Assembly (NCBI RefSeq): GCF_003966695.1
Contig: NZ_AP018827.1
Location: forward strand, 1,778,501-1,842,500
Origin: Asticcacaulis excentricus
Lineage (GTDB): Bacteria; Pseudomonadota; Alphaproteobacteria; Caulobacterales; Caulobacteraceae
Length of the DNA: 64,000 bases
Direction: 5' to 3'
In this document: positions 5,980 through 61,912 of the stretch, piece after piece
Layout of the letters: each line of letters begins with the position of its first letter
How positions within the stretch are numbered: position 1 is the first letter of the stretch
Made by a program: the position numbers and the translations under genes
The notes under the pieces: generated by a model
Told to the model about the DNA's origin: nothing
Databases searched by the model: none
Seen by the model: only the letters and a program-made list of their open reading frames with translations

Positions 5980-6345
5980 TTAGAGAATCGTCGAGGGGGT
6001 TTCGCTGAGGTAGCGGTCAACCCGATTCTGACGATCGACCAGCACGACTCTGGGGATAATCGGGGCGTCGGTCAGCTCAAAACCCATGATAATGATCTGT
6101 TCAGATTCGTTGATCAGATGGGCGGCGGCACCGTTCATGGCGATCTTGCCTGAACCGCGCTCACCGGTGATGACATAGGTTTCCAGCCGGGCGCCCGACG
6201 TGTTCGATACCACCAGCACGCGCTCACCTTCCCACAGGCCGACGGCATCCATCAGGTCCTCGTCTATGGTGATAGACCCGATATAGGCCAGATTGGCCTC
6301 GGTGACGTAGGCGTTGTGGATCTTGGAACGCAGCAACTGACGCAT
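5980..6345 (-). CDS. panD: Aspartate 1-decarboxylase precursor
   Basis: Pyruvoyl enzyme making beta-alanine from L-aspartate for pantothenate and CoA synthesis. 121 residues, family length 115-140. The start MRQLLRSKIHNAYVTEANL and the self-cleavage site G23-S24 in YIGSITID are clear, as are ETYVITGERGSG and NGAAAHL that form the active-site cavity. The start is ATG 6345, 22 bp from the end of the palindrome at 6368-6431. The Shine-Dalgarno sequence before it is weak. TetR gene upstream, same strand. Confidence 0.95.
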   Translation of the reverse strand: MRQLLRSKIHNAYVTEANLAYIGSITIDEDLMDAVGLWEGERVLVVSNTSGARLETYVITGERGSGKIAMNGAAAHLINESEQIIIMGFELTDAPIIPRVVLVDRQNRVDRYLSETPSTIL

Positions 6346-6367: not shown

Positions 6368-6431
6368 GCCACGAAAAACACGAAAAGACACGAACAATAT
6401 GGCGTTCGTGTCTTTTCGTGTTTTTCGTGGC
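6368..6431. repeat. Solo perfect palindrome of the CACGAAAA repeat family (repeat E)
   Basis: 28-bp left arm (6368-6395) beginning GCCACGAAAAACACGAAAAG, an 8-nt loop, and a 28-bp right arm (6404-6431) that is its perfect reverse complement. The same arms occur at 60893-60919 and 61309-61336, where they flank a GxxExxY gene. Here no gene lies between them. It sits between the TetR gene and panD, so panD transcripts starting upstream would carry a very stable hairpin. Confidence 0.9.
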
Positions 6432-6478: not shown

Positions 6479-7102
6479 TCAATCGACCCAGAGGTCCGTC
6501 ACATCACCCTTGCGGTTCAGCATATGCACGGCGCGCTTGATGACATTGAGCAGGTTTTCGATGCGTTCGGGCTGATCATAGGTCAGGGCGGCCCGGTGAA
6601 GACCATCCAGCGCAAAGCGGGCGAGGTCACGACTGGCCTGAAAACGGGCATCGACACCCGCGGTGATAAAGCCCGGCGTGGCACGCCCCATGGCCCCGCG
6701 GTCAAAGGCTTCCTGCGCCGGGCGGATGGCCTTCGCTACGTCTTCGTCCTGACGCGCGGCACGCTCCAGCGCCAGAAAGGCGGCAAACGGCACCGAACTG
6801 AGCAGACGCCAGTAGGCATCAATGGCCCCGTCCAGCGCATCCTGACCGGGTTTCAGCTTGCCCGCTTCGGCCTCAAAGGCGGCTTCGCGCGCGGCGTGGA
6901 TATGCCAGGCGGCGGCTTCGACCAGCGCTTCGCGGGTCGGGAAGTGATAGAGCATGGCGCCGCGCGTCAGGCCGCAGGCTTCGGCGATAGCGGCATTGCC
7001 CGCACGGTCATAGCCCAGTTCGGCGAACAGCCGCATGGCGGTGTCGAGAATCTGAACCCGCGTGCGGCGGGACTTGGGCGTGTCTTTCGGTCGATCGCTC
7101 AT
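6479..7102 (-). CDS. TetR/AcrR family transcriptional regulator
   Basis: 207-residue one-component repressor. The N-terminal helix-turn-helix is at about residues 13-58 (RVQILDTAMRLFAELGYDR, then CGLTRGAMLYHFPTREALVEA). The C-terminal ligand-binding half is helical and not diagnostic, so the effector is unknown. The start is ATG 7102 with GGAAGG seven bases upstream; an open frame runs back to 7393 but has no start support. It is divergent from the glycosyltransferase gene and precedes panD; either neighbour, or itself, could be the target. Confidence 0.85.
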   Translation of the reverse strand: MSDRPKDTPKSRRTRVQILDTAMRLFAELGYDRAGNAAIAEACGLTRGAMLYHFPTREALVEAAAWHIHAAREAAFEAEAGKLKPGQDALDGAIDAYWRLLSSVPFAAFLALERAARQDEDVAKAIRPAQEAFDRGAMGRATPGFITAGVDARFQASRDLARFALDGLHRAALTYDQPERIENLLNVIKRAVHMLNRKGDVTDLWVD

Positions 7103-7454
7103 AAGCTGCCTTCCAGCCTCCGCGCGCTGGCCTCCCGTGGTGTGTTGTTTACGGGCGCGGACGCTACTCACATTCCGGTCATTCGTCGCGGTTGACAAGG
7201 GGCTGGAGGGTTTGACGCGACTTTGTACCATAGTTGCGATTATACGCGCCTTTTTGTGCATCGCAACAACCCGCTCCCCACAAAAGCGGCGGCAAGCCCT
7301 GAAAAATCCACCCTTTGCCGTTCGCAACTGCGCAAAAGCCGCCGGATTTCCCCCACCGCTGTGGCCACTGTCGCAGGCGTGAAATAAAATCATGCTTCAC
7401 AGACCGCCCGATGCCCTTTAGACAAGAGGGTCAGGACAACAGACGGAAACGATT
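7103..7454. other. 352-bp divergent intergenic region
   Basis: Separates the TetR gene (minus) from the glycosyltransferase (plus). A candidate minus-strand promoter is listed separately. On the plus strand TTGACA at 7192 and TTGACG at 7212 are -35-like, but no convincing -10 follows at 16-18 bp. I see no conserved small gene here. Confidence 0.5.
7239..7266 (-). promoter_or_regulatory. Candidate promoter for the TetR gene
   Basis: Minus-strand TTGCGA (7266-7261), 16-bp spacer, TATAAT (7244-7239), about 137 bp before the TetR start codon. The -10 is a perfect consensus match; the -35 matches at four positions. Confidence 0.4.
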
Positions 7455-60317: not shown

Positions 60318-60887
60318 ATGGATGATGTGAAAACCGCCATCGAGCAGAAGATCGCCGCCCTGACCGACCGCACCCTGCTGCTGCTGGACGACGATGCGCC
60401 GTTTCGTCAGCGTCTGGCCCGCGCCCTGGAGTCGCGCGGCTTCACCGTTACCGCGGTCGAAAGCGTGGCCGAGGCACTGAAAGTCATTGAGGCGAGCCCG
60501 CCGGCTTTCGGCGTGATGGATATGCGCCTTGAAGACGGCAATGGCCTGAAAGCGGTCGAGGCTCTGCACGCCAAACGCCCCGATGCGCGCGCCATCATGC
60601 TGACCGGCTACGGCAATATCGCGACGGCGGTCGCCGCAGTGAAGTCGGGCGCGGTGGATTATCTGTCGAAACCTGCTGATGCCGATGACGTCGTTAAGGC
60701 GCTACTGGCGGTGGAAGACCACGCCCCGGCCCCGCCCGAAAACCCCATGTCGGCCGACCGCGTGCGCTGGGAGCATATTCAGCGCGTCTATGCCCTGTGC
60801 AATCAGAATGTCTCGGAAACCGCGCGTCGACTGAACATGCACCGGCGGACTTTGCAGCGTATTCTGGCCAAAAAGGCACCGAAATAG
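60318..60887 (+). CDS. regA: Redox response regulator RegA/PrrA/ActR
   Basis: 189 residues. Receiver domain with D24-D26 acidic pocket and phospho-acceptor D68 (MDMRLEDG), a flexible linker, and the Fis-type helix-turn-helix NVSETARRLNMHRRTLQRIL at the C-terminus, strongly conserved in RegA. Behind regB by 36 bp. Expected to control respiration and carbon or nitrogen metabolism genes in response to redox state. Confidence 0.94.
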   Translation: MDDVKTAIEQKIAALTDRTLLLLDDDAPFRQRLARALESRGFTVTAVESVAEALKVIEASPPAFGVMDMRLEDGNGLKAVEALHAKRPDARAIMLTGYGNIATAVAAVKSGAVDYLSKPADADDVVKALLAVEDHAPAPPENPMSADRVRWEHIQRVYALCNQNVSETARRLNMHRRTLQRILAKKAPK

Positions 60888-60892
60888 GTTTG

Positions 60893-61336
60893 GCCACGAA
60901 AAACACGAAAAGACACGAAATCAGAGCGCAAATCGTTCAATTTGCGCCTTGGGATGACGACCGAAATTAACAAGCAAACCCAGTCGTAAGTCCGTTGCTT
61001 TCAGGTAATTAAGTATTTGAGCCCGATGCGCATCGGTAATCGCCGAAACGCATTTCAGCTCCACAATAATCTGATCGTAACAGACAAAATCAGGTTGATA
61101 ATGCTGAGTGAGAACCTCGCCCTTATAGGCGAGGTTCAGTATTTTCTGCGCGGTAAGAGGAATGTCTCGTCTGACAAACTCTCTGGCCAGACATTCCTGA
61201 TAAACGGCTTCCAGAAAGCCAGTGCCCATATGGCGGCTAACTTCGAAAACGGCACCCTGAATAGCAAAGACTTCGTCTCTAAAAAGCAGTTCCTGCACAC
61301 TTCCCCCTTTTCGTGCCTTTTCGTGTTTTTCGTGGC
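60893..61336. repeat. Inverted repeat (repeat E arms) bracketing a GxxExxY gene
   Basis: Left arm 60893-60919 is GCCACGAAAAACACGAAAAG plus ACACGAA; right arm 61309-61336 is its reverse complement with one mismatch. The arms match those of the solo palindrome at 6368-6431. Only one base separates the left arm from the stop codon of the enclosed gene, and the right arm ends about 10 bases from its start codon. Confidence 0.88.
60921..61298 (-). CDS. GxxExxY protein, PD-(D/E)xK-like
   Basis: 125 residues. The defining motif is GTGFLEAVYQE, with G27, E30 and Y33. QPDFVCYDQIIVELK supplies D70 and E80-x-K82, so the protein has the arrangement of the PD-(D/E)xK nuclease fold, including a helix-1 Glu (E30). 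Start is GTG 61298 with GGGGGA four bases upstream. No function is established for the family as far as I know. The gene is alone and lies exactly between inverted repeat arms. Confidence 0.88.
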   Translation of the reverse strand: MQELLFRDEVFAIQGAVFEVSRHMGTGFLEAVYQECLAREFVRRDIPLTAQKILNLAYKGEVLTQHYQPDFVCYDQIIVELKCVSAITDAHRAQILNYLKATDLRLGLLVNFGRHPKAQIERFAL

Positions 61337-61342
61337 TAAAAC

Positions 61343-61912
61343 TTATTCATCGGCGATGATGATATCGGGATTTTCCGGCAGGACGAATTCGAACAGGCCC
61401 ATGTCCAGCGCCTTTTGCGGGCGATAGGCCATCAGCGGCGCATGGGCCAGCGCCTGCACCTCCTCAGGGGTCAGCGGCACATCCAGCGCCTTTTTACGCA
61501 CGGCGCGCGCCTGAAGGTGCGGGGTAACGGCGGATGAGGGTTTGGGCGCAGGCCGCACAGTCCCGATCTTCCAGTAGCTGACGCACAGCTTCCATTGCGC
61601 CACCGGAGCCGCTTCGGGCCTGGGCCAGCGGCGGCCGTCGCGCATCTGCGGCTCAACCCGGCGCGGCTTCTGAACCCGTTCAAAGGTGCAGATCAGGGTC
61701 GCAAACGGTTCGCTCAGCAGGGTTTCATACTGCGCCCGCGCCGCCTCTTCGCTCGGAAAGCCCGGATCGAGCGTTTCGCGTACAAAGGACACGTCCTTGC
61801 CGCAGGCCGCCTTCGCCGCGCGTTCGCGCTCAGCCGCCACCAGCCCGCCCCCACCCCAGTTGAGGACGACGTCGAGCGCGTTGTGCGCGATGGGATAGGC
61901 AATAGCAGGCAT
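61343..61912 (-). CDS. Protein of unknown function (189 aa)
   Basis: No signal peptide or membrane segment. The N-terminus MPAIAYPIAHNALDVVLNWGGGG is hydrophobic and Gly-rich; the middle has WKLCVSYWKIG with aromatic residues; the end is acidic. I do not recognise a family. It starts 6 bases after repeat E's right arm ends (gene stop side), i.e. the GxxExxY gene lies just downstream of it on the same strand. Codon usage matches neighbours. Confidence 0.68.
   Translation of the reverse strand: MPAIAYPIAHNALDVVLNWGGGGLVAAERERAAKAACGKDVSFVRETLDPGFPSEEAARAQYETLLSEPFATLICTFERVQKPRRVEPQMRDGRRWPRPEAAPVAQWKLCVSYWKIGTVRPAPKPSSAVTPHLQARAVRKKALDVPLTPEEVQALAHAPLMAYRPQKALDMGLFEFVLPENPDIIIADE

Follow-up and report, generated by a model that had tools for sequence, protein, structure and literature searches.

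MITEs are short gene-less copies that share their ends with an autonomous, gene-bearing partner, and the homing endonucleases of the PD-(D/E)XK group are small nuclease genes found at recurrent sites. Cas4 has an iron-sulfur cluster. The nearest parallel to the locus studied here is offered by the REPIN/RAYT (TnpA-REP) systems: passages of PMC3116915 and PMC3733652 describe inward-facing, hairpin-capable pairs of repeats that are dispersed between genes, an enzyme gene of low copy number with these repeats on either side, and several repeat types per genome. GxxExxY proteins are rarely named in the PMC literature, which leaves most subscription papers outside its scope, and the passages naming them there do not mention repeats. 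Among the passages found in the same literature, with the same scope, TIGR04256 is not mentioned, PF13366 is barely mentioned, and REP was not found together with PDDEXK. The repeat strings described below matched only texts on Bacillus phage holins and fish eDNA. In one passage (PMC8934634), CRISPRone had called cas4 where the authors' own pipeline called GxxExxY.

We analysed a stretch of DNA of 64,000 nucleotides (hereafter the window; G000:C1:1778501-1842500) from a genome of 3.79 Mb (G000). The original prediction placed a GxxExxY gene of this window between the arms of an inverted repeat, in the layout of a minimal mobile element. The gene (60921-61298, minus strand) starts with GTG and encodes 125 amino acids. 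It is indeed boxed by arms of 27 nt: the left arm, CCACGAAAAACACGAAAAGACACGAAA (60894-60920, plus strand), has three CACGAAA units 9-10 nt apart and a CC at its outer end, and the right arm, AAAAGGCACGAAA (61309-61335, minus strand), is the left arm inverted with one mismatch, 26 of the 27 bases being alike as inverted copies. The inverted repeat extends outwards to 60881-60920 and 61309-61348, where it is 88% complementary over 40 nt. Terminal inverted repeats, by which insertion sequences and transposons are recognised, are thus present around the gene. The fit is tighter than predicted on the stop side, where the supposed base of slack is none because the stop codon begins at 60921 and touches the left arm. 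On the start side ten bases separate the right arm from the start codon, as had been estimated, and a Shine-Dalgarno-like GGGGGAAG can be seen by eye next to the arm, again as described. The boxed open reading frame matches PF13366 alone above the curated Pfam cut-offs, and no known transposase or recombinase lies between the arms, which agrees with the earlier observation. The whole block between the stop codons of two convergent genes (60888-61342) is present or absent as a unit in relatives. The convergent genes themselves belong to the host side and are a response regulator gene (60318-60887, plus strand; PF00072) and a gene without a Pfam match at E 0.001 (61343-61912, minus strand). With up to three mismatches, the pattern of the window's arm matches four times in the window versus never in 100 shuffles, and 14 times in the whole genome, in which the reversed pattern has no match and one GxxExxY gene was found. 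Known structured RNAs gave three matches, every one below the gathering score.

The window protein scores 138.6 bits against PF13366 (cut-off 22) and 137.8 bits against TIGR04256 (cut-off 35). The residues that had been singled out as those of a PD-(D/E)XK nuclease stood up well to an alignment of 43 homologues: E30, D70 and K82 are invariant, as are G25, G27, Y33, Q94, Y98, N111 and R122, and E80 is kept in at least 90%. The conserved D70 and E80-x-K82 are the hallmark of the PD-(D/E)XK family, and the conserved Q94-x-x-x-Y98 has the form of the QxxxY motif. There is no cysteine among the invariant columns of these 43 homologues, and therefore no sign of the iron-sulfur cluster of Cas4. The window protein does not reach the cut-off of the Cas4 family (13.5 versus 22.7 bits, E 0.08); among the 43 members, 15 give hits to the Pfam Cas4 model with E ≤1 (best 0.005). 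PHROGs gave weak leads only, and the search by sequence for a relative with a solved structure returned one chain at E 0.2, which we take as chance. Judged from its sequence, GxxExxY appears to be a minimal Cas4/RecB-like PD-(D/E)XK nuclease, weakly Cas4-like. It is under purifying selection, with dN/dS between 0.026 and 0.25 in 11 of 14 pairs (those with finite dS; dS exceeds 1 in four of the 11), and is maintained, probably as an active nuclease.

Boxing is the rule for these genes, not a local accident. An inverted-repeat score of at least 13, a threshold picked after the scores were seen, is reached at 58 of 73 Pseudomonadota GxxExxY genes (87 distinct match rows minus 14 with partial genes), versus 2 of 142 controls taken from the same loci displaced by 900 nt. 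The same score is attained by 54 of 77 testable genes in a set that spans many phyla and is no random draw, because it comes from the 80 loci most similar to the query among the matches listed (minus L147, L173 and L190, too near a contig end), versus 4 of 470 neighbouring ORFs, called mechanically at 300 nt or more. The titles of these 80 loci name Bacteroidota, Planctomycetota, Verrucomicrobia, Calditrichota, Chloroflexi, Deltaproteobacteria, Nitrospirales and others. At a stricter score of at least 15 the counts are 54/73 versus 0/142 in Pseudomonadota and, for the genes from the best 80 loci listed, 44/77 versus 4/470. The Fisher tests at threshold 13 (p = 1e-35 and 4e-51, respectively) are descriptive because the loci are not independent. 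Below this threshold lie 15 of the 73 Pseudomonadota loci and 23 of the 77 loci from the best 80 listed; in the genus, 23 of 27 loci score at least 11. GxxExxY genes in general, for which such a test had been proposed, are thus flanked by inverted arms more often than chance, and the shuffle, offset and neighbour-ORF controls rule out that the window gene is flanked by chance or by a plain dispersed repeat. On viral contigs the pattern fits seven stretches, two of which are relatives (L259 and L260), with unit arms visible by eye on both sides. Boxing was also seen around other genes. On a contig of Aequorivita aquimaris, a DUF559 gene (PF04480; L177:9671-10063) lies inside a perfect inverted repeat of 18 nt, CTCCCTTTAGGGTTGGGG, and is perhaps, with its arms, a sister system; on a contig of a Prevotella MAG, a 23S_rRNA_IVP gene (PF05635; L149:9064-9468) is boxed by an AT-rich inverted repeat of its own (TAGTTTAATTGG...). 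Several GxxExxY genes stand between co-directed, intact-looking neighbours, trpD-trpC-like and fabD-fabG-like by eye (L080, L081, L083, L084, L088, L089, L091, L093, L095-L097; L106, L108).

The arms differ in sequence and share one build, of about three head-to-tail CRCRRAN units 9-10 nt apart with an outer end that is usually CC (examples beside that of the window are CCACAGATTACACAGATTTCACAGATT, ACCGCAGAGTACGCAGAGTTCCGCAGAG and TCCGCAGATTACGCAGATGTTCGCAGAT). Units are spaced by 9 nt in 73 cases, 10 in 38, 8 in 9, and 11 or 12 in 4, and 77 of 96 arms have a C directly before their first unit. When units are counted by the CRCRRAN motif in 112 arms, three or four are found in 51, two in 39, and one or none in 22. 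The start codon chosen at several loci in family f28 precedes the arm, which would then be translated. A few loci (L115 in G072, L141, L116 and L158) have arms in the opposite orientation, with the CC end facing the gene.

The class of arm is coupled to the protein lineage. We analysed 148 loci with proteins, i.e. 71 of the 73 Pseudomonadota loci (without L098 and L104) and the 77 from the best 80 listed. Of these, 112 score at least 13, 108 of the 112 have arms of at most 60 nt, and 89 with at least two readable units make up a tree with good support at 41 of its 86 inner branches. Loci with more similar proteins have more similar arms (Mantel r 0.209 for the 108 loci; none of 2000 permutations was as high, the top one being 0.106); within single genomes, over 23 pairs, the correlation is 0.40 (p 0.059), and for pairs across the two locus sets it is 0.13. 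The 89-protein tree requires 27 changes in the tetramer that follows CRC, versus 60.1 when shuffled, and five in the class of the last base of the unit (T, G, or either A or C), for which 1000 shuffles gave 41 on average and never fewer than 33. This class is guessed correctly from the nearest protein at 84 of 89 loci, at 81 when the nearest protein is at most 60% identical (chance 34%), and at 57 when it is at most 50%; at ≤45% identity the guess falls to chance (33 of 89), so that the signal sits within the main clades. Since one genome, G003, carries several arm classes and the AGAT clade mixes many phyla, species descent alone is insufficient to account for the coupling. Arms are linked to their gene; part of the coupling can therefore be explained by co-inheritance, and it is to be read as maintained and not yet as recognition. 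The protein columns that separate arm classes include a C-terminal loop and the residue before Y98.

The same arms are dispersed in pairs that enclose no gene. We fetched 20 arm sites from G000, 16 of the window's kind and four of the AGAT kind. Inward-facing pairs make up 18 of them, and 15 of these pairs measure 60-170 nt; the predicted RNA folding energies range, as raw values, from -40 to -144 kcal/mol. One such pair, a REPIN-like hairpin of the window's arm kind, lies at 6369-6430 (6369-6395, plus strand; 6404-6430, minus strand) between a TetR-like gene (6479-7393, minus strand) and a panD-like gene (about 5980-6345, minus strand; both named by eye). The orthologous site has a pair in G014, G018, G004 and G006, with the arms kept and the interior varied, and in G006 both arms show matching changes. 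A GxxExxY gene with different arms occupies this intergenic site in G003, G009, G015 and G019. A nested pair, of the AGAT kind inside the window's kind, occurs in four copies, three within a longer duplicated stretch; the fourth, at an unrelated place, shares little beyond the element, with homology from about TTTAGCCAC. Although G000 has 32 CACRGA-type repeats, nearly all AGAT, it has no gene of that class.

Genomes with the gene tend to have the repeats, in statistics that ignore kinship. In the genus, repeats are present in all 13 genomes with the gene or pieces of it versus 5 of 12 without; when near-full-length genes alone are counted, by hand, the figures are 10 of 10 versus 8 of 15. Among 249 Pseudomonadota genomes, 34 have a GxxExxY gene (E 1e-10), and at least five repeats are found in 24 of these 34 versus 14 of the 215 gene-less ones. 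The proportions are 20/22 versus 9/17 within family f28 and 4/12 versus 5/198 outside it. Fewer than five repeats accompany the gene in G044, G263, G170, G207, G217, G253, G271, G084, G156 and G157, and the reversed-pattern control in Pseudomonadota is not empty, with scattered matches that reach five in G196. Two genomes without a GxxExxY match at E 1e-10, G042 and G050, carry clean repeats of the CCGCGGATTTCGCAGAT type in closely spaced opposite pairs, outward-facing by their listed strands, and may encode a diverged partner protein.

The comparison of the locus in relatives with and without the gene, proposed at the outset, was made in 25 genomes of the genus, nine of which could not be judged because the neighbour gene was not recognised. 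A gene-bearing element occupies the window site in three (G000, G018 and G015), and the one in G015 has other arms and another protein. In G019 there are a gene-less pair and a remnant end; in G013, G020, G005, G007 and G017 the stop codons are a few bases apart; and in G012 and G010 there is a spacer. The gap between the convergent genes is a hot spot: where the GxxExxY element is absent, it holds a different palindrome (GAGGCG..CTGAGGGGCTGC) in G014 (L054; the nearest relative, 95% in the regulator), G001 (L061) and G008 (L068), and short remnants of another repeat in G004 and G006. Between G000 and G018 the element is 96.9% alike versus 90.4 and 89.8% for the flanks; at four-fold sites the contrast is weak (8/57 in the element versus 38/110 and 20/100 in the flanks, together 58/210; p 0.04). 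The comparison of filled and empty sites, among which there is no closely matched pair, gave no exact element junction, and by eye we saw no target-site duplication at the regulator site, the panD-like site or the nested copies, in line with the original prediction. The gene is thus not always kept at its site, and neighbouring genes are boxed far less often than GxxExxY genes, which is the opposite of what ordinary dispersed repeats had been expected to show.

The analysis established the boxing rule, the common build of the arms, their coupling to the protein, the dispersed gene-less pairs, the presence and absence at one site, the purifying selection and the conserved active-site residues. 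Boxing, coupling and gene-less pairs suggest a dispersed element, probably mobile, of a kind not described before. The reading that we prefer, with some confidence, is of a dispersed repeat system with two components, probably mobile, in which the boxed gene represents the copy that bears the nuclease, and the nuclease reads and acts on the arms. One component would be the arm of about three head-to-tail CRCRRAN units, 9-10 nt apart and usually with an outer CC, used as an inward-facing pair. The other would be the GxxExxY nuclease, which we infer to recognise the repeated unit in the arms around its own gene, chiefly by the unit's last base. This enzyme would act when a pair folds, either as a hairpin on single-stranded DNA during replication or as a cruciform, and may cut close to the outer CC. 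Both boxed genes and gene-less pairs could then be excised, copied or repaired into new intergenic places by host enzymes, gene-less pairs being non-autonomous copies as REPINs are to RAYTs. PD-(D/E)XK enzymes hydrolyse DNA and are not known to join strands unaided, so movement would need this help from the host. In favour of the two-component system we also count the association of gene and repeats across genomes, the weak Cas4 matches, the different occupants of one site, the nested pair at an unrelated place, the element that is more alike than its flanks, and a genome free of Y1_Tnp matches. Against it we count the need for host help, the repeats that are common without the gene (those of the AGAT kind in G000 included), the share of the coupling that co-inheritance can explain, the missing target duplication and exact junction, the loci below threshold, the within-genome p value, the class guess that drops to chance, and the weak four-fold contrast. 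A bolder version, which we hold tentatively and find somewhat less probable than its negation, holds that a class of mobile repeats found throughout bacteria has GxxExxY as its only enzyme. This hydrolytic nuclease of Cas4/RecB-like type would read its own three-unit arms by a protein-DNA code and, acting alone, mobilise both its gene and gene-less hairpins, as a counterpart of REPIN-RAYT that arose from an unrelated nuclease fold. The idea of a minimal mobile element thus survives in part: boxing and patchy presence support it, whereas the dispersed gene-less pairs and an arm sequence that varies with the protein lineage go beyond what the ends of a single transposon would show.

The best-surviving alternative, which we nevertheless consider unlikely, is that the arms are binding or processing sites (an operator, mRNA ends or repair hairpins) for a resident nuclease that serves the cell, their dispersed copies being other targets that were spread by recombination or slippage and are not self-mobile. 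Purifying selection suits this alternative, as do the orthologous gene-less pairs that keep their arms while the interior varies and the low copy number of the gene (one in G000, 0-6 per genome in the genus). So does its rarity on replicons that travel: tblastn with the window protein, which may miss distant classes, matched 8 of 72,556 plasmids and none of 50,697 phage records, which speaks against phage or plasmid carriage. A resident nuclease accords poorly with the patchy presence of the family, matched in 13 of the 25 genus genomes (G016, G021 and G022 with pieces alone), with the different occupants of one site, and with the nested pair at an unrelated place.

Still less probable is a gene that behaves like a homing endonuclease, whose product cuts empty sites and which is copied in by repair from a filled homologue. 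This would explain why the regulator site (G000, G018, G015) and the panD-like site (G003, G009, G015, G019) have been occupied repeatedly, why trpD-trpC-like and fabD-fabG-like junctions (named by eye) are reused in other families, and why the elements of G000 and G018 are more alike than their flanks. However, the conserved sequence is in the arms, inside the element, instead of being split around it, and these arms also occur, gene-less, at many other places. We give very little credence to ordinary dispersed REP-type repeats, moved by a RAYT or another transposase and flanking the gene by happenstance: the repeats are dispersed and found in gene-less genomes too, but boxing is far above the controls and the arm class is coupled to the protein lineage. 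Moreover, Y1_Tnp (PF01797, the Y1/RAYT transposase) has no match in G000, which speaks against RAYT-driven spread there, nor in 20 other genus genomes, four of the 25 having one (G009, G011, G019, G021). Least credible of all is that GxxExxY is a passenger, e.g. a defence gene, on arms worked by an unrecognised transposase, an idea to which the weak matches to PADLOC defence-library models (Cas4, PDC-M36A and RT-linked PDDEXK; best E 1.5e-5) lend something, but of the four boxed neighbour ORFs among 470 at the fetched loci, L134 alone has arms of the GxxExxY kind.

With a two-component repeat system as the preferred reading, a widespread family of unknown function gains a probable target, and dispersed repeats in many phyla gain a probable enzyme. 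If the nuclease drives the repeats, they would form a class of mobile elements with an enzyme outside the known transposase types, and the unit's last base, which tracks the protein lineage, makes a recognition code directly testable.

Each of the described systems shares a part of this arrangement. Like the PD-(D/E)XK homing endonucleases, GxxExxY is a small nuclease gene at recurrent sites, but it lies between genes and is boxed by inverted arms that are themselves dispersed. With Cas4/RecB-like nucleases it has in common the D, ExK and QxxxY residues and weak Cas4 matches; it differs in scoring under the Cas4 cut-off and in forming its own family. As in MITEs, gene-less copies share their ends with a gene-bearing copy, although no known transposase lies between the arms and target duplication was not seen. 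The likeness to REPIN/RAYT, as described in the passages cited above, goes furthest: GxxExxY arms also form inverted, dispersed pairs (18 of the 20 fetched sites in G000) that could fold into hairpins, come in more than one type within a genome, and accompany a low-copy boxed enzyme gene. In the terms of the same passages, the RAYT is an HUH Y1 enzyme whereas the protein here is PD-(D/E)XK, in a genome without a Y1_Tnp match, and a REP is a palindrome with a GTAG or CGTC foot whereas a single arm here is a run of direct units. The locus is thus not a member of REPIN-RAYT, because both the defining enzyme and the palindromic single repeat are missing; by analogy, the best reading is of a system that would work like REPIN-RAYT with an unrelated nuclease.
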